Below are positions 42,901-55,053 of a stretch of 64,000 bases of DNA, one piece after another; positions within the stretch are counted from its first letter, which is position 1, and the number at the start of each line of letters is the position of its first letter. This DNA comes from Chloracidobacterium sp. N (GTDB taxonomy: Bacteria; Acidobacteriota; Blastocatellia; Chloracidobacteriales; Chloracidobacteriaceae), in the NCBI RefSeq assembly GCF_018304765.1, contig NZ_CP072642.1, positions 851,501 to 915,500 of the forward strand, read 5' to 3'. Made by a program: the position numbers and the translations under genes. The notes under the pieces are model-generated. The model saw only the letters and a list, made by a program, of their open reading frames with translations. It made no database searches and had not been told where the DNA came from.

Positions 42901-43064
42901 CGTACGGCCGAATGTCGGCAACAGCTTGACGTGGCCCGACTGCGGCCCATACCGTTTAGGGCGCGCACACTCAACGAAACCCTCGACTCGTCATCTTTCA
43001 CCGTGATGAGCTGCATCTGAAGCCACTCCAGGATGTAGGTGATCACGTCTTTGGCCTGCACCAT
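42897..43064 (-). CDS. Possible small protein antisense to the kinase leader (doubtful)
   Basis: A 55-residue frame begins at ATG 43064, which shares its CATG with the divergent kinase start at 43063. Its first part, QAKDVITYILEWLQMQLI, has protein-like composition and mostly G/C-ending codons. No ribosome-binding site is visible, it overlaps the queD promoter, and I recognise no homolog. It could equally be chance. Confidence 0.25.
   Translation of the reverse strand: MVQAKDVITYILEWLQMQLITVKDDESRVSLSVRALNGMGRSRATSSCCRHSAVR
42926..42953 (+). promoter_or_regulatory. Candidate promoter of the kinase-GGDEF gene
   Basis: TTGACG (42926-42931) and CATACC (42948-42953) are spaced 16 bp. The -10 is weak. 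Its -35 is 25 bases from that of the divergent queD promoter. It would leave a leader of about 100 bases before ATG 43063. Confidence 0.35.
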
Positions 43065-46000
43065 GACCGAACGCGAGTCGCCACCGATGGAAGTGACTGA
43101 CGACCAGCCGGACCCGCTGCTGGGGATGACGGTGGATGGCAAGTACCGCATCGAACGGGTGCTCGGCGTGGGCGGGATGGCCACGGTGTATGCGGCCGTG
43201 CGGCTGCAAATTGGCGACACGGCTGCCATCAAGGTGCTTTCACCGGAGTCGAAATCCGTCCCGCTGGCGGTCGCCCGTTTCCAGCGCGAGGTGCGCGCCG
43301 CGGCCCGGATCAAACATCCCAACGTCGTGTCCATCTATGACTTCGGGACGCTGCCGGATGGGCGCGCCTACATGGTCATGGAGTACATCACCGGGGAGTC
43401 CCTGCGGGAAGAACTCAAGCGGGTGGGGCGTCTCGTCCCCGAACGCGCCGTGGCCATCATGACCAGCGTGTGCGCCGCCATTCACGCCGCCCACCAGGAA
43501 GGGATTCTGCACCGCGATCTCAAGCCGGAAAACATCATGCTGGCGCGCATGCGGGATGGGGGCGAAGTCGTCAAGGTCGTGGATTTCGGCGTCGCCGAGC
43601 TGCATGAGCAGGCGGCCACGTCAGCCATGACAAAGCTGACCGAATACGGGCTGATGGTGGGGACACCCCACTACATGTCGCCGGAGCAATGCCGGAGCGA
43701 GCCGCTCGATGCCCGGTCAGATGTGTACAGCCTAGGCATCATTCTCTACGAACTGCTGACCGGGAGCGTGCCGTTCAATGCCCGGACGGTTTCAGCCGTC
43801 ATCATCCAGCAGGCGACGGAAGCACCGCGCCGTCCGCGCGATTTGAACCCGGAGCTGAGTTGGGCGCTGGAGCATGTCGTGCTGCGGGCGCTGGAGAAAG
43901 ACCCGGCGCGTCGGCCGCAGACGGCAGCCGAACTGGCCCAGGACCTGCAGTTGTCGCTGACCAATGTGAGGGCCACGGGGTCGTTCGGTTTTTCCGCCCC
44001 ACCGGCCCGTGATACGACCGGTTCACTGCCGCCGGTGACGTTCGGGAGCACTTCCGAGCACCTCACGCCGCGCTCCCTGGTGGTACGCCGGTCGGGAACA
44101 CTCCGCTACGACAGCCTGACCGGGATTCGGAACCTGACCTTTCTCAAGCAGGAGGTGGAAAGTCTCGTTGCCGCCCGCCGGACGGCTTCGCTGCTGCTGG
44201 TGGGGGTGGATGGCATGAAGGCCGTCAACGACCGCTTCGGCTACACCGTGGGGGACAGCCTGTTGCGGGAACTGGCCCACTGGCTGCGTGAGCACGTGGG
44301 TGAACTGGGCATTGTGGCGCGGCTGGGCGGGGATGAGTTTGCCATCCTTCTGCCTGGCAACACGGCGGCCGACACCATCGTGTTTGCCGACCGGATGAAG
44401 CAACGTCTGGCTGAGCAACGGTTCCTGCGGGCTGAAGTGACCGGGGGACTGCCGGTGCAGGTGACGATTGCTGTGGTGGTGTCGCCGGATGATGCGGTCA
44501 CCGGCGTCGGCCTGCTCGATGTGGGCGGGCAGGCACTGGCAGCGGCGAAGCGGCAGGTGCCGGGGGGCATTTACCGGCAGGGGCTGGATGAATCCACCCT
44601 GCGCGCCCACCCGAACTTCAACGCCTTTGTCGGTCGGGAACGGGAACTGCACCGGCTGCGGGAAATGTTTGACCGGACGGTGGCCGGGCGCGGACAGCCG
44701 GTTCTGGTGCTCGGCCCAACGGGAATCGGCAAAACCCGTCTGCTCCAGGAATTTCGCCGCCAACTCGCCGGTCAGGAAGTCACCTTTCTGACCATGCCCT
44801 TCTACGAGGCTGGTCAGGGGACGCCGTACAAGTCCTTCTACGACAGCCTGCGGGGAAGCTTGCAGTTGCTGCTTGAAGCCAATGAGCCGCCGGTCGTCCA
44901 GCAGATTCTCGGTCCGCTGGCCGAGCGGGTGTCGCTGGAGTTTGCCACCGAGGACGGGTTTCTGCACTTCTGCGATTCCGTACAGTCGGAAAACCAGCAC
45001 GAGCGCTATCTGGCCTTTGACTATATGGTGGCGCTGTACGCGGCGCTGGCGCACCAGCAGGTCACGGTGCTGTTTGTGGATGACGCGCATTTTGCTGATG
45101 AGCTGAGCCTGGATTTGCTGGCGTATCTGGCGCGCTCAACCGTCGGGCAACGACTGATGCTGGTGCTCACGGCGCGGACGGAAGTGCTGACCGAGCAGCA
45201 TCCCCTGCGCAACTGGATGCGGGCTGTCAATCAGTCGGTTGGGTATCAGTCCCTGACGCTCGAACCGTTGTCTCTGGAGGAGTCCACGGCGCTGCTCCAC
45301 ACGACGTTTCCCAGTCTGAAGGTTGCCGGCAGCACTGTGGCCCGTCTGCATGCGGAGACCCGTGGCAATCCGTTCTTTCTGGCCGAGATCCTGCGCCACC
45401 TCGTGCAGACCCAGCATATTGTGCGTCAGGAAGACAGTTGGGTGTTTCCGCCGCTGACGGATGTCTCCCTGCCGCCATCGGTCGTAGAGGTCGTTGAGGC
45501 TTCCTTTTCGCGTCTTTCTCCGACGGCTCTGGAGTTGTTGTCCCAGGCCGCGGTCATGGGCATGGACTTTACCTTTGACCTGCTCGTGGAAGTGACCGAG
45601 CGCCCGGAACGGGAAGTTCTGGCGGCGGTCGAGGAGGGCCTGGCGCAGGGCATCATCACCGAGTTGACCGAAGCCGAGGAAGACAGTTACCGCTTTCGCC
45701 ACGGAACGGTGCAGAAGGTGCTTTACAACCGGCTCAACCGGCGGCGGCGGCGCACAACGCATGCCGCGGTGGGATATGCGCTTGAAAAGGCGACGACCGT
45801 GACCGGGCGCAGCAGCCGCCTGGCGGGTGAACTGGCCTTTCACTTCTACCACGCTGCGGAGTATCTCCCCACCCTGCGCTATGCCGCCCTGGCCGGAACT
45901 CATGCCTGGCGGAGCTGGGCCATTGATGAGGCCCTCAAGTTTTATGGTTGGGCCGAAGAAGCCGAGCGCCGCTTGAACATCCTGGTGGATGTCATCTTTG

Positions 46001-47208
46001 ATGAGAAGCAGGCATCATTTGACAACGTGCCCGTAGAGCAACTGCGGCTCATTGCCGACTTCAACCTCAACTACGGGCAGATGCTCATTCACATCGGCCG
46101 GCTGGATGAGGCTGAAAAAAAGCTCCAGCTTGCCCAGACCCTGGCGCGTCCTTCCCAGGACGAGCACCTGCGGGGCAAGACGCTGGCGGCGCTTGGTGAA
46201 CTGTGCGAGGCCCGGAGCGAGTATTCCTCGGCGCTGCTCTACTGCCACCAGTCCCTTGAAATCCTGCGGCGCAAGGGCGACAAACGCGCCGAAGCCCGGA
46301 CGATGGCGATGATCGGCACACTGTATGACCGGCTGGGGCAGTTTGCGCGCGCGGCCGATGCGCTGGAAAAAGCCTTGGCGCTGGCGCGCGCCATCCGGGA
46401 CCGCCAGATTGAGGCCATTGCTCTGCGGGAGGGGAGCTTCGTCCGCGCCCGGCAGGGATTGTTTGCCACGGCGGTGGCGCTGGCCAAAGAAGGCATTGCC
46501 GCTGTGGAGCGGCTGTCTGACCCGCTGGCCCTCTCGATTGCCACCAGCATCCTTGGTTTTGCCCTGCGCTCCCAGGGCGACTACGAAACCGCCATAGGGC
46601 ATTTTCAACGGGCGCGCCAGCTTACCCAGGACCTCAATCGTCCGCGCAGTGAGTGCATCGAACTCACTAACCTCGCGGAATGCCACATCGGGTTGGGAGA
46701 ATCCTCCCTGGCGCTCGACAAGGCCCAGACGGCGCTGGATATTGCCCTCAGGATTGGCAACCGTCAGCTTGAAGGGCTGGCAACGCTGACCATTGGCCGC
46801 GCCTATCGCCAGCGGGAGGAACTCGGTGCAGCCGTGGTGTGCTTCCAATCAGCCCTGAAGCTGCTTTCATCCATCAGTGACCGGGCGGCCGAGTGTGATG
46901 CGCTGCTGGCGCTGGCCGATTGGCACTGTCTGGACCGGCATCCGATTGAAGCTCTCGAACTGATGCACCAGGCGCTGGCGGTACTGCCGGATGAAACCGC
47001 CCGGCCGTGGCAGTGGCGGATTGCGGTGATGTTGGCCCGTTGCCACCGGCTGTTGCGGCAGGTGGATGTTGCCCGGACTGATCTTGAGAAAGCGCGCACC
47101 ATCATCGAGACCCTGCGAAGCAATCTTGATCCAAGTGTGCCTCCCGACCGCTTTGCACGGGTAACGCGGGCCTTCGACGAGGAATGGGCGGAAGTGTACG
47201 GCCAGTGA
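43063..47208 (+). CDS. Ser/Thr kinase - GGDEF - STAND-type ATPase - TPR multidomain signalling protein
   Basis: The protein has 1,381 residues from ATG 43063 (ATG 43087 is possible). Residues 24-290 are a Hanks-type kinase with GVGGMATVYAA, catalytic Lys in AIKVLSPE, HRDLKPEN (150-157), DFG (174) and GTPHYMSPEQ. Residues 345-500 are a GGDEF domain: DSLTGIRNLTFLKQEVE, MKAVNDRFGYTVGDSLLREL and intact GGDEF at 422-426. Residues 525-900 are an AAA/STAND ATPase as in large adenylate-cyclase or LuxR regulators: FVGRERELHRL, Walker A GPTGIGKT (551-558), Walker B VTVLFVDDAHFADE. Residues 940-1350 are TPR repeats. No membrane segment is visible. The GGDEF suggests cyclic di-GMP synthesis, but other required residues need checking. 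Confidence 0.9.
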   Translation: MTERESPPMEVTDDQPDPLLGMTVDGKYRIERVLGVGGMATVYAAVRLQIGDTAAIKVLSPESKSVPLAVARFQREVRAAARIKHPNVVSIYDFGTLPDGRAYMVMEYITGESLREELKRVGRLVPERAVAIMTSVCAAIHAAHQEGILHRDLKPENIMLARMRDGGEVVKVVDFGVAELHEQAATSAMTKLTEYGLMVGTPHYMSPEQCRSEPLDARSDVYSLGIILYELLTGSVPFNARTVSAVIIQQATEAPRRPRDLNPELSWALEHVVLRALEKDPARRPQTAAELAQDLQLSLTNVRATGSFGFSAPPARDTTGSLPPVTFGSTSEHLTPRSLVVRRSGTLRYDSLTGIRNLTFLKQEVESLVAARRTASLLLVGVDGMKAVNDRFGYTVGDSLLRELAHWLREHVGELGIVARLGGDEFAILLPGNTAADTIVFADRMKQRLAEQRFLRAEVTGGLPVQVTIAVVVSPDDAVTGVGLLDVGGQALAAAKRQVPGGIYRQGLDESTLRAHPNFNAFVGRERELHRLREMFDRTVAGRGQPVLVLGPTGIGKTRLLQEFRRQLAGQEVTFLTMPFYEAGQGTPYKSFYDSLRGSLQLLLEANEPPVVQQILGPLAERVSLEFATEDGFLHFCDSVQSENQHERYLAFDYMVALYAALAHQQVTVLFVDDAHFADELSLDLLAYLARSTVGQRLMLVLTARTEVLTEQHPLRNWMRAVNQSVGYQSLTLEPLSLEESTALLHTTFPSLKVAGSTVARLHAETRGNPFFLAEILRHLVQTQHIVRQEDSWVFPPLTDVSLPPSVVEVVEASFSRLSPTALELLSQAAVMGMDFTFDLLVEVTERPEREVLAAVEEGLAQGIITELTEAEEDSYRFRHGTVQKVLYNRLNRRRRRTTHAAVGYALEKATTVTGRSSRLAGELAFHFYHAAEYLPTLRYAALAGTHAWRSWAIDEALKFYGWAEEAERRLNILVDVIFDEKQASFDNVPVEQLRLIADFNLNYGQMLIHIGRLDEAEKKLQLAQTLARPSQDEHLRGKTLAALGELCEARSEYSSALLYCHQSLEILRRKGDKRAEARTMAMIGTLYDRLGQFARAADALEKALALARAIRDRQIEAIALREGSFVRARQGLFATAVALAKEGIAAVERLSDPLALSIATSILGFALRSQGDYETAIGHFQRARQLTQDLNRPRSECIELTNLAECHIGLGESSLALDKAQTALDIALRIGNRQLEGLATLTIGRAYRQREELGAAVVCFQSALKLLSSISDRAAECDALLALADWHCLDRHPIEALELMHQALAVLPDETARPWQWRIAVMLARCHRLLRQVDVARTDLEKARTIIETLRSNLDPSVPPDRFARVTRAFDEEWAEVYGQ

Positions 47209-47356
47209 CACCTTTCTGTCCCGCAGCGGCGTGCCGTTACAGAAACCCGCAGGCTTTCAACGCTCCGGTCTGGCCGCCATCGGGCAACCCCAGCGCCCTG
47301 TGCGCCAAAGTGAATTTGGATGCAGCAGCTTGCTTTGTCAGCCTGCCTGCCAAAGC

Positions 47357-48211
47357 CTAAATCAGTCTGAGTTGTTCTATTTTCTTTTGCACTATTTGCT
47401 CAATTGGAAGCTCATAGTTGGAAATGAAAAGTTCACTTCCTTTTTCCGCCCTGCCCTGTTTGTAGTTGTTCATTCCATACTGCAATTGCCATTCATAGAT
47501 ATTTGCAAAATCAAAATTTTTTCTGATTTCCGGCGAGTCGTCATAAGTTATCAGCCAGGAATGATTGCATTTTTTCATCTCACCAGCAAATTCACTATGG
47601 TCAAAGTTTAGATGCAGGATACCATTTTTGCCATACAGCTTTGATTTTGTTGCCTTGAAATAAGGTGGATCAAGAAAGATGAAAACTTCCTTTTCTCCAT
47701 CGTGCAACAGTTCGCGGTAATCCAGACAGGTAATCCTGACCCCTTCCAAAAGTTTCCCCAGTCTGGCAACGCGCCGGATGGAAGACTCTGTGAACCTTCC
47801 AAGAAAAGCCAACCGGGAGTATCCTCCGGATTCAACAACTCCTGAAAAGGTGATCCGGTTCAGAACGAAGAAGCGGACTGCCCTTTCAAGTTCGGACAAA
47901 CTTTCACTGTTTCTGTTTACCAGTTCGTCAAACAGTTCCTGCCCATCTTTTCTTTCCAATTTGACTTTGAAAATCTCGCTTGCCAATTTTTCAGAGTCCT
48001 TCTGTACATATTTCCAGAAAAAGTATAGCTCCGGATTGAGATCATTGATCCAGATGCTTATTTCCGGGCAGGTCTGGCGCAGGTAAATAAAAAATGACCC
48101 ACCGCCGACAAACGGCTCTCTGTATTCTCTGAAATCCTTTGGCAGGAGATACCTTATTTGCTGGATTGCGCGCGACTTGCCGCCGGGATACCGCAGAGGG
48201 CTTTTTAGCAT
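47357..48211 (-). CDS. DNA adenine methylase, D12 class (Dam-like), orphan
   Basis: The protein has 284 residues from ATG 48211 (no clear ribosome-binding site). Motif order X-I-IV of class D12 N6-adenine methyltransferases is visible: LRYPGGKSRAIQQI, REPFVGGGSFFIYL (SAM binding) and FIFLDPPYFKATK (catalytic DPPY). Family members methylate adenine in short sites such as GATC. No restriction endonuclease gene is adjacent, so it is an orphan or part of a lost system. Base composition is much AT-richer than all neighbours and codon use differs, indicating recent transfer. It lies between the kinase-GGDEF gene and a relic of that gene's 3' end. Confidence 0.92.
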   Translation of the reverse strand: MLKSPLRYPGGKSRAIQQIRYLLPKDFREYREPFVGGGSFFIYLRQTCPEISIWINDLNPELYFFWKYVQKDSEKLASEIFKVKLERKDGQELFDELVNRNSESLSELERAVRFFVLNRITFSGVVESGGYSRLAFLGRFTESSIRRVARLGKLLEGVRITCLDYRELLHDGEKEVFIFLDPPYFKATKSKLYGKNGILHLNFDHSEFAGEMKKCNHSWLITYDDSPEIRKNFDFANIYEWQLQYGMNNYKQGRAEKGSELFISNYELPIEQIVQKKIEQLRLI

Positions 48212-48261
48212 AGTGCGTCGGGAGTGGGATTGTCTCTGTGAAGGGGTGTCCGGTTTGCGCC

Positions 48262-48430
48262 TTCCATGTGTTCCTGCACCGGGCGCTGGTGGGGCTGCCG
48301 GATGAAACCGCCCGTCCATGGGCGTCGTGGGTTGCCATGACGCTTGCCCGCTGCCGCCGGCTGTTGCGTCGGGGCCGTGGTAGTAGAAGGATGTCGCCCG
48401 CACTGTCGTGCAGGCACCACCCGGCGCGCG
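48262..48430 (+). pseudogene. Degenerate copy of the 3' end of a kinase-GGDEF-TPR gene
   Basis: The translation in frame 1 reads HRALVGLPDETARPW...LARCRRLLR and matches HQALAVLPDETARPW...LARCHRLLR in the last TPR part of the 43063-47208 protein. After a frame change near 48385 the sequence continues DVARTVVQA, matching DVARTDLEKA. Nucleotide identity is evident (GGATGAAACCGCCCG is shared). It is a broken relic of a second copy, separated from the intact gene by the methylase. The remaining gap bases hold nothing I can identify. Confidence 0.8.
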
Positions 48431-48464
48431 CCCGGCCACAGACCGCAGCTTCAGGTCACTTTTC

Positions 48465-50342
48465 CTATCCGGCAGGCAAAGCACTTGTAGGCCTGTTGCC
48501 CGGACAGGTTGTCGTACTGCGCATCGTCAACCAGGATGTTTGCCGGCGCATAGCGTGGCGTATCCACTTCGTCTCCGACAAGCTGGGCTTCACCAAATGA
48601 GTTGGGAATGAAAATGACATCCTCCCGGATGCCTTCCCACAGGAGCACCGTGCCGGTGAGCCGTCCACGCGGGCTTTCCACAGTTCGGCCTGGCGTGAGT
48701 CTTGCCGGGCCATCACCTGCGCCAGCTCAATCCAGATTTCCCAGTCGGGCTTGGACATCCCCACCCGTGGAACGACTTGCGCCTGCCACCGGATGGCGCG
48801 GTCATCGCGCCGCATGTAAACGGTTTCCATCTCAAAACCGCTGCACACGGGCAGCACCAGATCGGCGTAGTAGGCCGACTCTTCCATGAACAGCCCGGTG
48901 TACACATAAAACTCCGGTTGGCGAAAGGCCTCCCGGACCTTGTGGCTGTTGGCGCTGCTCATCAACGGATTGCCGGCTGTCACCACAGCCCGGAGGGGAT
49001 AGGGCTGGCCGGTCAGAATTGCCTGGGCAAAATAGTCCGGCCCAACGGGAAGGGCCGGCGCTGAAGGCGAAGGCGCCTCGCCGACGGGCGGTGGAAGCTG
49101 CAAATCACCCGGCCAGGTGTTGTGCATGAAATTGCACCCGCCACCCGGCACGCCGATGTTGCCCGTAATGGCTGCCAGGAACGTCAGGGCGCGATAGGTG
49201 GCAAAGGCGTTGAGTTGGTGCGAAATACCGGCATTGCAGAAGATGGCCGCCGGCCGGGTGGTGGCGTAGCGGTGGGCGAGGTCACGGATGGCGTCAGCCG
49301 GAAGCCCGGTCACTTGTGCGGCCCACTGGGGCGTGTAGTCATGGCGGATGAGATGTTGCCTGAGTTCCTCGAAGCCCAGCACCCACCGGCGTACGAAAGG
49401 CTTGTCGTACAGTTGCCGGGTGACAATTTCGTGCAGCATGGCCAGAATGAGCGCCAGATCGCTGTGGGGCTTGATGGCGAGCCATTCATCCGCCAGGGCG
49501 GCCGTCGGCGTGCGGCGCGGATCGATGACAACCAGCCGCGCCCTGGTTTTTTGCCGGGCACGTAACAGGTAGGAAAATGTCACCGGATGCGTTTCAGCCT
49601 GGTTGGTGCCCAGAAACAGCAGGAATCTGGCGCTGCCCAGGTCTTCCTTGCCCGTTGCGCCGTCCACACCATAACCATTGGTGAAGAGGCCCAGTCCGAA
49701 CGTCCACGACAGGGCATTCCCGCCGGCGTCATTGCACACGGGCCCGACGTCAGTATCGTTGGGGCTACCCAACAGCCTGAAAAAACGATGGATGAGTGAG
49801 CCTGTCCCGCGTGGCAGCCGTCCTGACGTGCGGTTGGCGATGGTATGCGCCAGTCCGGCATCCCGCAGGGTCAGGAATCGCCGCGCCATGAGGTCATAGG
49901 CTTCGTCCCAGGTGATGGGCTCAAAACGGCTGTCGGGTGAGCCTTTCTCACCAGCCACACGTTTGAGCGGTTGCCGCAGGCGGAAACGGTTGTACACCAG
50001 CTCGGCCATGAGCTGTCCCTTGATGCAGATTTCACCGGCTTGCACCGGGTCATCCGGCTCGCCGCGCACTTCGAGGATGCGTCCCTGTTTGAGGGCCACC
50101 TGGAGACGGCAGAGCGAATTGCAAAACTGGCACGCGCTGGCCACGACCTGATCGGGTTCAAGGGCTGCCGATTGCCGGGTGTAGTTCTGGGGGCCGGCCG
50201 GTGAAGCGTCCGGGGCGGACTGGATGACGCCAGGCTGGATGAAGCCGGCAAGTGGCAGAAACGAATCGAGGCCGGCCATGCCCAGTGAGAACACTGCGCC
50301 GCCCTTCAGAAAACCACGCCGCGAGATGGCATCGTCTGACAT
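48465..50342 (-). CDS. Molybdopterin oxidoreductase (PsrA/PhsA-like), frameshifted near the C-terminus
   Basis: A Tat signal (SRRGFLKG) starts a 625-residue frame. The N-terminal [4Fe-4S] Cys set is ACQFCNSLC...EICIKGQ. A Cys that could ligate Mo lies in DVGPVCNDAGGNAL, and further segments (FLLFLGTNQAETHPVTF, RLVVIDPRRT, NIGVPGGGCNFMHN) mark the bis-MGD family. The substrate may be a sulfur compound (polysulfide/thiosulfate), which is inference. After RQAELWKA near 48680 the frame becomes unlike the family. The shifted frame continues VESPRGRLTG...ILVDDAQYDNLSGQQAYKCFACRI and ends at 48451, the expected C-terminus. So there is a frameshift: a pseudogene or a sequencing error. No electron-transfer subunits are adjacent. 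Confidence 0.85.
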   Translation of the reverse strand: MSDDAISRRGFLKGGAVFSLGMAGLDSFLPLAGFIQPGVIQSAPDASPAGPQNYTRQSAALEPDQVVASACQFCNSLCRLQVALKQGRILEVRGEPDDPVQAGEICIKGQLMAELVYNRFRLRQPLKRVAGEKGSPDSRFEPITWDEAYDLMARRFLTLRDAGLAHTIANRTSGRLPRGTGSLIHRFFRLLGSPNDTDVGPVCNDAGGNALSWTFGLGLFTNGYGVDGATGKEDLGSARFLLFLGTNQAETHPVTFSYLLRARQKTRARLVVIDPRRTPTAALADEWLAIKPHSDLALILAMLHEIVTRQLYDKPFVRRWVLGFEELRQHLIRHDYTPQWAAQVTGLPADAIRDLAHRYATTRPAAIFCNAGISHQLNAFATYRALTFLAAITGNIGVPGGGCNFMHNTWPGDLQLPPPVGEAPSPSAPALPVGPDYFAQAILTGQPYPLRAVVTAGNPLMSSANSHKVREAFRQPEFYVYTGLFMEESAYYADLVLPVCSGFEMETVYMRRDDRAIRWQAQVVPRVGMSKPDWEIWIELAQVMARQDSRQAELWKARVDGSPARCSCGKASGRMSFSFPTHLVKPSLSETKWIRHAMRRQTSWLTMRSTTTCPGNRPTSALPAG

Positions 50343-50395: not shown

Positions 50396-51388
50396 TCAAG
50401 TTTGTGGTGGTGCGACAAGCAGGAGCTTGCCCATGACGGTACGGCTTTCCAGTCGCTCGTGAGCCGCTGCTGCGGCAGCAAGTGGAAAGGTAGCCGCAAT
50501 TGGCACTTGAAACGCGCCGTTGGCAACCTGCGCCAGGATGTCCTCAAGGTCAGTCCGCGCCTCCGGGTAGCGCCCGGCCGCCATGAGGTTGCCCAACTGG
50601 AAGCCGTAGATGTGGGCATTCTTGGGGTAGAAATCCCGTACGTTGATGAGCGACGGTTCAAGCGTCACATTCGCCAGCGCGGCCACCCGTCCAAAGGGGG
50701 CCAGCGCCTTGAGCCCGTCGGCAAAGGTCTGCCCGCCGACCGTATCGAGAAAGGCCGTCACGCCCTTGTTTTCAGTGATGTCCCGGAGGGCTTCAAGGAG
50801 GTTGATTTCGGCGTAGTTGACCAGAATGTTCGCGCCGAGACGGGCGGCAAAGGCCAGTTTTTCCGCGCTGCTTGCGGCCGCAATGACCGCTGCGCCGACG
50901 TGGCGCGCGATCTGGATAGCGGCTGTCCCGACGCCACTGGCGGCAGCCGGAATGAGCAGCGTGTCATCCGGGCGCAGCCGGATGAGGCGGTGCAGGCAAT
51001 ACCACGCCGTGAGCCAGTTGACGGGCAGCGCCGCGGCCGTCGTCGTGGTGACCACTTCGGGAAGCAAAGCGACTTCATCCTCGTGCACGACGGCTTCCGT
51101 CACATAGAGACCCTTCCGGTGGCCAAAAATGACAACCCGACTGCCAACCGGTAGCCGGGCGGCACGTGACTCCACCACCACGCCAGCCGCTTCGAGTCCC
51201 GGCCGCGCCGGAGGCTGCGCACCATGGTAAGCTCCGGTGCGGAGCAGGATGTCAGCCCGATTGACGCCAATGGCCTCAATCGCCACACGGATCAAACCGG
51301 GTTCAAGGGCTGGGGTTTCTTCCGTAATCAGGTGGAGGACATCAGGGCCGCCAAAAGCTTCAACGATGATGGCTTGCCGTGTGGGCAT
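50396..51388 (-). CDS. Quinone oxidoreductase-like medium-chain dehydrogenase (zinc-free MDR)
   Basis: The protein has 330 residues from ATG 51388. The GroES-like N-terminal domain has VNRADILLRTGAY and ARPGLEAAGVVVE (the usual PG-E-aG-V segment). The Rossmann domain has LLIPAAASGVGTAAIQIARHVGAAVIAAASS, binding NADPH. The Zn ligands of alcohol dehydrogenases are absent, so it is of quinone-oxidoreductase type (reducing quinones or alpha,beta-unsaturated ketones). The upstream 71 bases form a divergent control region with the propeller-kinase gene. Confidence 0.9.
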   Translation of the reverse strand: MPTRQAIIVEAFGGPDVLHLITEETPALEPGLIRVAIEAIGVNRADILLRTGAYHGAQPPARPGLEAAGVVVESRAARLPVGSRVVIFGHRKGLYVTEAVVHEDEVALLPEVVTTTTAAALPVNWLTAWYCLHRLIRLRPDDTLLIPAAASGVGTAAIQIARHVGAAVIAAASSAEKLAFAARLGANILVNYAEINLLEALRDITENKGVTAFLDTVGGQTFADGLKALAPFGRVAALANVTLEPSLINVRDFYPKNAHIYGFQLGNLMAAGRYPEARTDLEDILAQVANGAFQVPIAATFPLAAAAAAHERLESRTVMGKLLLVAPPQT

Positions 51389-51459
51389 ACGGGTTGGAGA
51401 TGTACCTTTCGTCAGGTGATGCTGTACTGTGGCTGCAAAGTGTGTGTTCCCGCACAACC

Positions 51460-54400
51460 ATGCCACGGCTGCACCGGATTTGGCTACTCGGTCTGTGGTG
51501 CGTGCTGGCCGGGTTTGCCGGGGGGATAAGAGCTGACCCACGTCCTGTAACAGACGTTTCGGACGGGCCGCCGGTACGTCCGTTGACGCGCCTCTTCACC
51601 GGGAAAGACGGACTCCCCCAGGTTTCCGCCATGAGCCTGGCGACTGACCGGGAAGGGTATCTCTGGGTGGCGACCCAGGATGGTGCCGCCCGGTTCGACG
51701 GACGCACCTGGAAAACCTTTGCCATGCCCAACCGCCAGCGGTCGAACTTCCTGCGGGTGTGCCTGCCCACTGGCGACGGACGCCTGTGGTTCGGACGCCA
51801 GGATGGCGGACTCGCCTGCCGCCTGCCCGATGCCACTTGGGAAAACGCGGATGAAACCACCGGGCTTCCGGCCGGTCGGGTCAATTGTCTGCTGGAGCGG
51901 ACGGAAGGTGAACTCTGGATTGGCACGGAACGCGGGCTGGCCGTCTGGCGGGCAGCGACACGGCGCATCGAAGTCCTGCCGGGTCCGCTTTCCGGCGAGA
52001 GGGTGCTCTGCCTGACCAAAACTCCCGACGGCAGCGTGTGGGTTGGCACACCGAAGGGACTGGTTCGGCATGACGGGCGCACCTGGGAAACCATAACCGC
52101 CGGCCCAACCGGAAGTGTCTCAGCAGGTTACGTGGACGGGACAGGGGCGCTCTGGGTGGGGGGCAGCGAGGGGCAGCTCTGGCGTTGGGAAAACCGTACC
52201 TGGCGGCGCTGGCCGCTGCCAGTCCGCAGCCGCATCACGGCGCTGGCCGAAACGACGCCGCCCCAGGGGGCGCGCCGCCTGTGGGTTGGGACGGATGGCG
52301 ACGGCTTGCTGTACCTTCTCCCGGACAATCCGCCTGACCTTCAGGCCGTACAGGCGTTCGATGCGGCGTATGGCCTGCCCAACGTCAGTGTCTGGAGCCT
52401 GCTCGCCCTGCCGTCCGCCACTCCGGGGCAGCACGTCGGGCTGTGGGTCGGCACGGATGGCGGCCTGCTCCAGGTTTCATTTACCGGCTGGGCCACACTC
52501 GACAACATCCCCACCCTCGCCGGTGCGAGTGTCTATGGGATGTGCGCCGTGCGGCGTCCCGATGGCGGAACCAACTACTGGTTCGGGACACGCGGCAACG
52601 GACTGGTTGGCTACGCGGATGGGCGCTGGCAGCAGCTCACCGTGGCCGACGGCCTTTCGACCAACACGGTGTTCAGTGTGCATGAAACCTTTGCGGCGCA
52701 GACCGGTCGTTCCCTGTGGATTGGAACCCAGGCCGGACTGTTCCGCCGACCGGCCGGGGGGCGGGTCGCGCCGGTGCGTGCCGTGCCCAAACTCGAACGG
52801 GCAAGTGTGCGCGGCTTTCTCGAATCGGATGACGGTCTATGGATTGTCACGGCCGGCGCCGGTCTGCTGCGCTTCGAGGCGGAGCGGTGGACGGTTTTCG
52901 ACACCGCCAGCGGTCTGCCGACCGACAACCTGCACGCCATTTGTGAAAGTGTGTCGCCCGCCGGCGAAAAAAGTCTCTGGGTGGGAATGGAAAACGGCGG
53001 ACTGGCGCGGCTGGTCAACGGGCAATGGCAGGTGTGGCAGGCGCCGGTGCTGCCCAATAACACGGTCATGACCGTCCAGGTCATGGACTTTTCCGACGGA
53101 CGGCAGTTTCTGTTTGCCGGGACGGAGGGCGGCGGCCTCGTTACGGCAGAACTCGACGGTGCACCACTGCGCTTTCAGGTCTGGTCGGAGTCCACGACGC
53201 CCGGCTTTCCCAACGACACCGTTTATCAGGTGCGCTTCGATGCGCAACGGCGCGCCTATGCACTGACCAACAAGGGCGTGGCGCGACTGACCTACCGGGG
53301 AAACGGCAACTTCACGCTTGAAACCTTTGATACCGAAGACGGTTTACCAAGTGGGGAGTTCAACGGCGGCGCTTCGATGGTGGATCCGCTGGGGCGCATC
53401 TGGGGTGGAACACCCAACGGCGTGGCGGTGTTCAATCCGGCAGCCGAGGCGCTGGCATTACCACCCCAACCGCCGATGCTTCAGGCAGCAACTGCCGACG
53501 CCAATCCCCAAACCTTTGCCGACGGGCTGACGCTGCCCGCTCGTGTGCGCAGTCTGGTCTTTGAAATATCAGCCCCGACGTTTATCGCCGTCTCGCGCCT
53601 GCGCTACCGAACCCATCTTGAAGGCTTCGATGAACAGCCAACTGACTGGGGTTCCGAGTCCCAGCGCACCTTCACCAATCTCCGGCCCGGCGAGTACGTC
53701 TTCACCGCCTGGGTACGTGACGGATACGGACGCGAGAGCCAGCCCACCCGGATACGTTTTCGGATTGCCACGCCGTGGTGGCTGACGTGGTGGGCGTGGG
53801 TGGGGTACGTGGGCTGCGGGTTTGGGGCGGTCTATGCCGGGGTGCGGTGGCGGCTGCGGGCGCTGGAGCGGCGGAACGCGGAACTGGAAGCGAAGGTGGC
53901 CGAGCGGACGGCGGCGCTGGCCGCCGCCAAGGCGGAGGTGGAAGCCCAGAATCAGGCGTTGGCGGCGGCCAAGACCGAAGTGGAGCGGAAGAACGCGGCG
54001 CTGGACGAGAAGGTGGCGGCGCTGGAGGCGAGCCAGCGGCGCGCCGACCGGATATTTTCGGCGTTGGCGGAGGCGTTGCCGGGGACGGTGCTGGATGGGA
54101 AGTACCGGTTGGGGCGGAAGCTTGGGGCTGGCGGGTACGGGGTGGTGTTTGCGGGGGAGCATCTTGGGTTGCAGCGTGGGGTGGCGGTGAAGGTGTTCAA
54201 GCCGGTGGCCGGGAATGACAGTGCGGAGGCGCTGGAGCGGTTTCGGCGGGAGGGGTTGCTGGCGGCGCAGATACGGGATCGGCACGTGGTGGAGGTGATG
54301 GATGCTGGGGTGTCGGGGGAGGGGATGGCGTATCTGGTGATGGAGTTGCTGGAGGGGTATGCGGTGCGGGAGGAGATGCGGGGTGGGGGATTGGGAGTGG

Positions 54401-55053
54401 GGCGGGCGTTGCGGGTGTGCGGGGCGGTGTGTCGCGGGTTGGCGGCGGCACACGGGGTGGGGGTGGTGCATCGGGATGTGAAGCCTGAGAACGTGTATGT
54501 GGACTGGTCGGGTGGGGAGGAGGTGGTGAAGGTGGTGGATTTCGGGATAGCGACGGTGCTGGAGCGTGGTGGCGGGGGAGGGTTGGAGACGTTGACGGGG
54601 ACGGGTGCGGTGGTGGGGACACCGGCGTACATTGCGCCGGAGCGGGTGGTAGGGGGTGAGTATGACGGGCGTGCGGATGTGTATGCGGTTGGGGTGATGT
54701 TGTACGAGATGGTGTGTGGGGTGTTGCCGTTTGGGGGGCGTGGGGAGAGTGGGATACGGGTGTTGCTGGCGCACGTGCATGATGTGCCAGTGGGGCCTGG
54801 GAAGATGGTGGCTGGGCTGGATGAGGAGGTAAGCGGGTATATGCTGCGGCTGCTGGCGAAGGATGCTGGGGAGCGCCCGACGGCGGCGGAGGTGGCGGAG
54901 GAACTCGAACGCCTCGCCGACAAGGTGGCCCGTCAGCATCAGGCGCTCTCTGACCGGATAGCAGCCAGCTCAGGTGAAATGAATCGGTTGGTCGAAACGC
55001 GGCGGCGGACGACTACGGTCCGGCGTAATCCCGCAACGGATGAACGCTCATAG
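51460..55053 (+). CDS. Periplasmic propeller sensor - transmembrane - Ser/Thr protein kinase, copy 1
   Basis: The protein has 1,197 residues from ATG 51460. A signal peptide (LHRIWLLGLWCVLAGFAGG) leads to about 650 residues of two-component-regulator-type propeller repeats, recognisable by recurring G[YE]LWVATQDG, GELWIGTERG and GSVWVGTPKG units. A Y_Y_Y-type beta domain follows (LEGFDEQPTDW...NLRPGEYVFTAWVRD). One membrane segment (from about 771: TPWWLTWWAWVGYVGCGFGAV) leads into a coiled coil (NAELEAKVAERTAALAAAK) and a kinase with GAGGYGVVFAG, AVKVFKP, HRDVKPEN (1004), DFGIAT and GTPAYIAPE. In most bacteria this periplasmic layout drives a histidine kinase; here the output is a Ser/Thr kinase. 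The C-terminal 1.1 kb is nearly identical to that of the next gene. Confidence 0.92.
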   Translation: MPRLHRIWLLGLWCVLAGFAGGIRADPRPVTDVSDGPPVRPLTRLFTGKDGLPQVSAMSLATDREGYLWVATQDGAARFDGRTWKTFAMPNRQRSNFLRVCLPTGDGRLWFGRQDGGLACRLPDATWENADETTGLPAGRVNCLLERTEGELWIGTERGLAVWRAATRRIEVLPGPLSGERVLCLTKTPDGSVWVGTPKGLVRHDGRTWETITAGPTGSVSAGYVDGTGALWVGGSEGQLWRWENRTWRRWPLPVRSRITALAETTPPQGARRLWVGTDGDGLLYLLPDNPPDLQAVQAFDAAYGLPNVSVWSLLALPSATPGQHVGLWVGTDGGLLQVSFTGWATLDNIPTLAGASVYGMCAVRRPDGGTNYWFGTRGNGLVGYADGRWQQLTVADGLSTNTVFSVHETFAAQTGRSLWIGTQAGLFRRPAGGRVAPVRAVPKLERASVRGFLESDDGLWIVTAGAGLLRFEAERWTVFDTASGLPTDNLHAICESVSPAGEKSLWVGMENGGLARLVNGQWQVWQAPVLPNNTVMTVQVMDFSDGRQFLFAGTEGGGLVTAELDGAPLRFQVWSESTTPGFPNDTVYQVRFDAQRRAYALTNKGVARLTYRGNGNFTLETFDTEDGLPSGEFNGGASMVDPLGRIWGGTPNGVAVFNPAAEALALPPQPPMLQAATADANPQTFADGLTLPARVRSLVFEISAPTFIAVSRLRYRTHLEGFDEQPTDWGSESQRTFTNLRPGEYVFTAWVRDGYGRESQPTRIRFRIATPWWLTWWAWVGYVGCGFGAVYAGVRWRLRALERRNAELEAKVAERTAALAAAKAEVEAQNQALAAAKTEVERKNAALDEKVAALEASQRRADRIFSALAEALPGTVLDGKYRLGRKLGAGGYGVVFAGEHLGLQRGVAVKVFKPVAGNDSAEALERFRREGLLAAQIRDRHVVEVMDAGVSGEGMAYLVMELLEGYAVREEMRGGGLGVGRALRVCGAVCRGLAAAHGVGVVHRDVKPENVYVDWSGGEEVVKVVDFGIATVLERGGGGGLETLTGTGAVVGTPAYIAPERVVGGEYDGRADVYAVGVMLYEMVCGVLPFGGRGESGIRVLLAHVHDVPVGPGKMVAGLDEEVSGYMLRLLAKDAGERPTAAEVAEELERLADKVARQHQALSDRIAASSGEMNRLVETRRRTTTVRRNPATDERS
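53770..54875 (+). repeat. 1.1-kb direct repeat, copy 1 (TM/coiled-coil/kinase cassette)
   Basis: Compared base by base with 57430-58535 (offset 3,660) I find five differences (53873, 54033, 54177, 54312, 54549), four of them synonymous. The boundaries are sharp: identity starts at the 'a' of ACGCCGTGG and ends at 54876. The cassette is strongly G-rich on the coding strand with G-ending codons, unlike the sensor halves. Confidence 0.95.

Follow-up and report, generated by a model that had tools for sequence, protein, structure and literature searches.

Gene content of the site

Chloracidobacterium is a hot-spring phototroph. The genome under study (G000) consists of two contigs, and the window, the whole 64,000-nucleotide stretch of DNA that was analysed, lies within chromosome 1. 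Comparisons within the genus covered seven Chloracidobacterium genomes (G000 to G006), one per species; G001 is the closest relative of G000, with DNA about 96-98% identical on either side of the site. The following features were found:

43039-47208, plus strand: intact gene for a single 1389-aa protein with Ser/Thr kinase, GGDEF, AAA and TPR regions (Pfam domains); orthologue kept in all seven genus genomes
46964-47062, plus strand: stretch of the kinase tail matched by the relic
47209-47356, no strand: spacer
47357-48211, minus strand: gene for a D12-fold DNA methyltransferase of 284 aa, M.CbeI/DmtB-like and apparently orphan, predicted to make N4-methylcytosine in GGCC
48212-48274, no strand: 63 bp without detectable kinase or spacer match (scores no better than shuffles)
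48275-48405, plus strand: degenerate copy of the kinase tail, the relic (48275-48373 and 48389-48405, with a 14-bp insertion between; alignment and shuffles)
48454-50342, minus strand: molybdopterin oxidoreductase pseudogene (comparison with L051; Pfam)
50396-51541, minus strand: quinone-oxidoreductase-like gene, the right flank kept in most relatives (G001, G002, G003 and G005)

The kinase reading frame is unbroken to its stop at 47208, in agreement with the sequence-only reading, which had described an intact kinase 3' end on the left of the methyltransferase gene. A DNA search with the spacer (47209-47356) found no homology elsewhere in the seven genus genomes. In the window oxidoreductase, compared with that of G003, about 200 aa are missing near 48674-48681, after which the frame is changed, and the gene ends, at about 48454, in a second frame. 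Farther to the right, a very strong GC skew (0.40 to 0.63) was seen at 53750-54999, over the kinase domain of the gene at 51379-55053, far above the rest of the profiled stretch.

The interval between the kinase gene and the quinone-oxidoreductase-like gene is a gene graveyard, in which genes arrive, decay and leave. In G003 the molybdopterin oxidoreductase occupies the same position but is disrupted by stops, frameshifts and deletions; this gene is absent at the site from G001, G002 and G005. The genes flanking the site are nearly adjacent in G002, and the interval of G005 (L050:4926-7986) contains the genes for a MerR-type regulator and for a VIT/VWA-like protein of 843 aa, the latter named from its sequence and not by a search. 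Other genes lie downstream of the kinase in G004 and G006. Where the window has a 3.2-kb block, G001 has only 131 unrelated bases between the kinase stop and the quinone-oxidoreductase-like gene; comparison of the loci found the methylase, the relic and the oxidoreductase all absent from the G001 site. The sequence-only reading had proposed a comparison with related strains lacking the methylase; G001 lacks it at this site. The short spacer of G001 most plausibly reflects a later deletion.

The methyltransferase and its missing partner

Pfam places the enzyme in PF02086, the D12 class of N6-adenine-specific DNA methylases, and the sequence-only reading had taken it for a DNA adenine methylase. 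A phmmer search against solved structures gave 7m6b, which is M.CbeI of Caldicellulosiruptor bescii, at E 1.2e-96, with DpnM at 9e-16 and Dam at 5e-6; the enzyme is 55.9% identical to M.CbeI over nearly its whole length and 27.8% identical to DpnM. The predicted model (pTM 0.80) gave the same order in Foldseek, with 7m6b best (E 7e-26) and DpnM at 8e-14. The motifs EPFVGGGSFF at residues 32-41 (FxGxG type) and DPPY at residues 181-184 are invariant or nearly so in alignment A1, and their order, FxGxG then DPPY, is the alpha order with D replacing S, as in the M.CbeI/DmtB group. M.CbeI was itself annotated as a D12 adenine methylase and carries DPPY, yet it makes N4-methylcytosine in GGCC (Chung et al., PMC3425538); the activity is shared by DmtB of Anabaena, which is 57% identical to it (PMC3425538). 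Since M.CbeI is the closest characterised enzyme in both sequence and fold, N4-methylcytosine in GGCC is predicted for the window methylase, whose nearest known experimentally tested relative is only about 56% identical to it. The enzyme is thus probably a GGCC N4-cytosine methyltransferase, and the label 'adenine methylase' is probably wrong.

A Dam/DpnM-type adenine methylase would fit the shared Pfam family and fold class, the match to TIGR00571 (Dam family) and the DPPY motif, which is typical of adenine enzymes. It is nevertheless unlikely, as the TIGR00571 score of 111.4 bits narrowly misses the cut-off of 114.85, identity to DpnM is only about 28%, and M.CbeI, far closer in sequence and fold, makes N4-methylcytosine with the same DPPY. 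GGCC occurs in the window at 0.78 of expectation, in the middle of the range of 16 palindromes, so that its avoidance was uninformative as a sign of restriction and composition says nothing on specificity. CTAG and GATC are far below expectation (0.20 and 0.38, respectively) both in the window and in G001, a rarity not tied to the methylase. Nothing relevant on a Chloracidobacterium methylome came up in a search of the literature.

In many relatives (Anaerolineae, cyanobacteria and Ignavibacteria), the methylase is the second gene of a two-gene cassette and follows a protein of about 376-400 aa; on the Nostoc plasmid pTCL26-01_D it is instead partnered by a nuclease of the HaeIII family. Such type II cassettes, found in Anaerolineae, cyanobacteria and Chloracidobacterium G006, differ from the window in their nuclease gene, which is missing both there and in all of G000. 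No cassette-type partner was found anywhere in G000, and no PF09556 (HaeIII-type) nuclease in any of the seven genus genomes; within the genus, the cassette partner is intact only in G006 and in two pieces in G001. A type II restriction-modification system has its cognate nuclease adjacent or elsewhere in the genome, and neither of the two known nuclease types was detected at either place. By these searches the window methylase is an orphan, in contrast to M.CbeI, whose partner nuclease is CbeI; lacking a nuclease partner of either known type, the enzyme would act alone. For the methylase, PADLOC gives type II as well as orphan methyltransferase models. The methylase copy of G005 adjoins another restriction system and may therefore be paired in that genome.

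The partner family (alignment A2; for example L070:3869-4999, L067:3862-4998, L091:2245-3390 and L061:4377-5516) stands directly before the methylase in many bacteria, and its invariant DE...QExKN residues resemble a PD-(D/E)xK site. Searches of Pfam, NCBIfam and PDB sequences gave no match to the family; only PADLOC names a function, that of a type II restriction enzyme. The partner model (pTM 0.77) had no significant Foldseek match, and its VIA matches were weak (best Z 5.8), several being to folds like those of restriction endonucleases and confined to the C-terminal part. The partner could be a GGCC-cutting enzyme of a kind not related to HaeIII.

The sequence-only reading had called the methylase foreign by composition. 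The composition is confirmed, with a GC content of 0.43 in the methylase ORF against 0.64 in the kinase (0.63-0.64 in the window neighbour genes), but in trees the gene falls, in a loose grouping, beside other Chloracidobacterium copies. GC is 0.34-0.51 in all methylase copies of the genus except the cassette copy of G006 (0.58). As low GC is usual for the family in the genus, foreign composition alone does not date the import, which, given the loose grouping, may be old. Each of the seven genomes has at least one gene of the methylase group, mostly at different loci: the copies of the window, G005, G004 and G002 occupy four different loci, and those of G003 and G006 stand at a common locus, next to an ArnT-like gene, near whose counterpart in G000 no close methylase match was found. 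A second copy of the group on G001 chromosome 2 (L062:4093-5977) is cut to 182 aa and adjoins an IS200/IS605 TnpB gene.

Trees place the window gene with the G005 copy, inside a mixed Anaerolineae, cyanobacterial and Chloracidobacterium group, with moderate support. The best single matches outside the genus are 77-80% identical, and several cyanobacterial relatives, other than DmtB and Sll0729 themselves, are 60-64% identical to the window methylase. DmtB and M.Ssp6803II of cyanobacteria (GGm4CC) rank among the closest known systems. The cyanobacterial GGm4CC enzyme is conserved widely in its phylum, whereas the Chloracidobacterium gene changes place between species. A 77% identical methylase (L156:2995-3873), with no cassette partner directly upstream, is carried on a 105-kb contig classed as viral, and hints at a possible vehicle. 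Between the window and G005 genes, nonsynonymous difference is 0.15 and synonymous difference 0.77, near saturation, a pattern that shows the protein to be under constraint.

The kinase-tail relic and the history of the site

The relic at 48275-48373 is identical to the kinase tail at 46964-47062 in 79 of 99 bases. Local alignment of tail and relic scored 98, whereas 2000 dinucleotide shuffles averaged 19.6 and never exceeded 34, and blastn matched the two at 81% over a 94-bp core with E 8e-20 against the whole window, in which no second match of comparable strength was found. Past the 14-bp insertion, 48389-48405 agrees with 47064-47080 in 15 of 17 bases (shuffle p 0.009). By shuffle test, neither the 63 bp on the left-hand side of the relic nor the DNA on its right up to 48465 showed a match to tail or spacer. 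The pairwise alignment proposed by the sequence-only reading is therefore well beyond shuffled sequence: the degenerate copy it had described on the right of the methylase is borne out, the peptide fragments it had listed are present, and its length of about 160 bp is reduced to a detectable span of about 130 bp.

Across these 99 bp, the relic departs from the kinase tail of G000 at 20 positions, from that of G001 at 21 and from those of the other five species at 33-38. By codon position (1/2/3), the 20 differences to G000 fall 5/8/7, while those between the G000 and G003 kinases fall 3/3/18 (Fisher p 0.014). Nearest to the tail of its own lineage, different across codon positions and with its frame broken by the insertion, the relic has the features of a duplicate pseudogene, and it is best read as an old duplicate of its own lineage's kinase that drifted as non-coding DNA. 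The tandem duplication of the kinase tail suggested by the sequence-only reading is thereby supported; the link that it drew between duplication and methylase insertion is possible but unproven.

The distance of the relic from its source is 0.24, and dS between the G000 and G001 kinases is 0.07. On a rough clock, drawn from only 99 bp, the duplication would predate the split of G000 and G001; since relic divergence exceeds synonymous divergence, G001 most likely lost the methylase, the relic and the oxidoreductase. A long target-site duplication was rejected as the source of the relic, because identity between the copies is no more than 80% and, by the same clock, the relic is older than the sister split. 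The kinase relic itself is ordinary genome decay.

The strip is decaying DNA that holds an old tail copy, a broken molybdopterin oxidoreductase and one intact methyltransferase gene. The best explanation, to which we give a probability of about 0.72, combines this decay with an old tail duplicate, an orphan GGCC N4-cytosine methyltransferase that stayed and loss of the block in G001. Before G000 and G001 separated, the kinase tail would have been duplicated in their ancestor, and the copy would have drifted without function. The methyltransferase gene would have entered the permissive strip and would have been kept because it was functional, and G001 would afterwards have lost the whole block. 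The enzyme is predicted to bind S-adenosylmethionine via the FxGxG motif and, with DPPY, to methylate the cytosine N4 amino group in GGCC, like M.CbeI and DmtB. Acting alone, it may serve epigenetic marking, the role of M.Ssp6803II in Synechocystis, or protection against the GGCC-cutting systems of neighbours and phages.

A single event could instead have built the site, if a piece carrying a tail segment and the methylase had entered the kinase tail through one Campbell-type crossover, so that direct repeats came to flank the insert, one still joined to the kinase and the other orphaned and decaying. Such an event would leave the gene order that is seen (kinase, methylase, tail copy, oxidoreductase), the tail copy adjoins the oxidoreductase end as the kinase does in G003, and the virus-classed contig offers a possible vehicle. 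Integration of this kind is nonetheless doubtful, as there is no carrier remnant and no recognisable junction, nothing left of the relic matches kinase or spacer, and the relic is without the last 130 bp of the tail, which would call for a further deletion. We consider it improbable that the relic and its right flank were recombined in from another Chloracidobacterium lineage, their divergence being that between species: gene content at the site does differ from genome to genome, but the codon-position spread of the relic departs from that between kinases and most of its differences are private to it. The sequence-only alternative of a complete second kinase, mostly replaced by the methylase, would suit the orientation of the tail copy, which is right for the end of a downstream gene, but is very improbable, since the seven genus genomes contain no second close kinase (next full-length match 25-28% identical) and no relic copy elsewhere, and the 63 bp left of the relic hold no kinase sequence.

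A possible GGm4CC mark in Chloracidobacterium

Taken with the preferred reading, the anatomy of the site is real and mostly ordinary, and is explained by decay, duplication and gene mobility. For a gene automatically annotated as an 'adenine methylase', the likely chemistry is corrected to N4 cytosine methylation, and the exact motif, GGCC, is named. The Chloracidobacterium isolates of PMC8245765 were PacBio-sequenced, all except the original enrichment genome B, and the kinetic data, if kept, could answer the GGCC question without new experiments.

In Synechocystis, M.Ssp6803II makes GGm4CC, and its loss alters transcription, replication, repair and hemJ expression (PMC6560206, PMC11662147); HaeIII cannot cut sites that carry this mark (PMC6560206). 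A genus-wide GGm4CC mark in Chloracidobacterium, set by a locus-shifting orphan methyltransferase that every genome keeps and that came from the mat community (Anaerolineae, cyanobacteria), and regulating genes, possibly those of pigment synthesis like hemJ in Synechocystis, is a tentative and rather unlikely extension of these results. Should GGm4CC occur there, the mark by which Synechocystis controls transcription and tetrapyrrole synthesis would also exist in a phototroph that is not a cyanobacterium.
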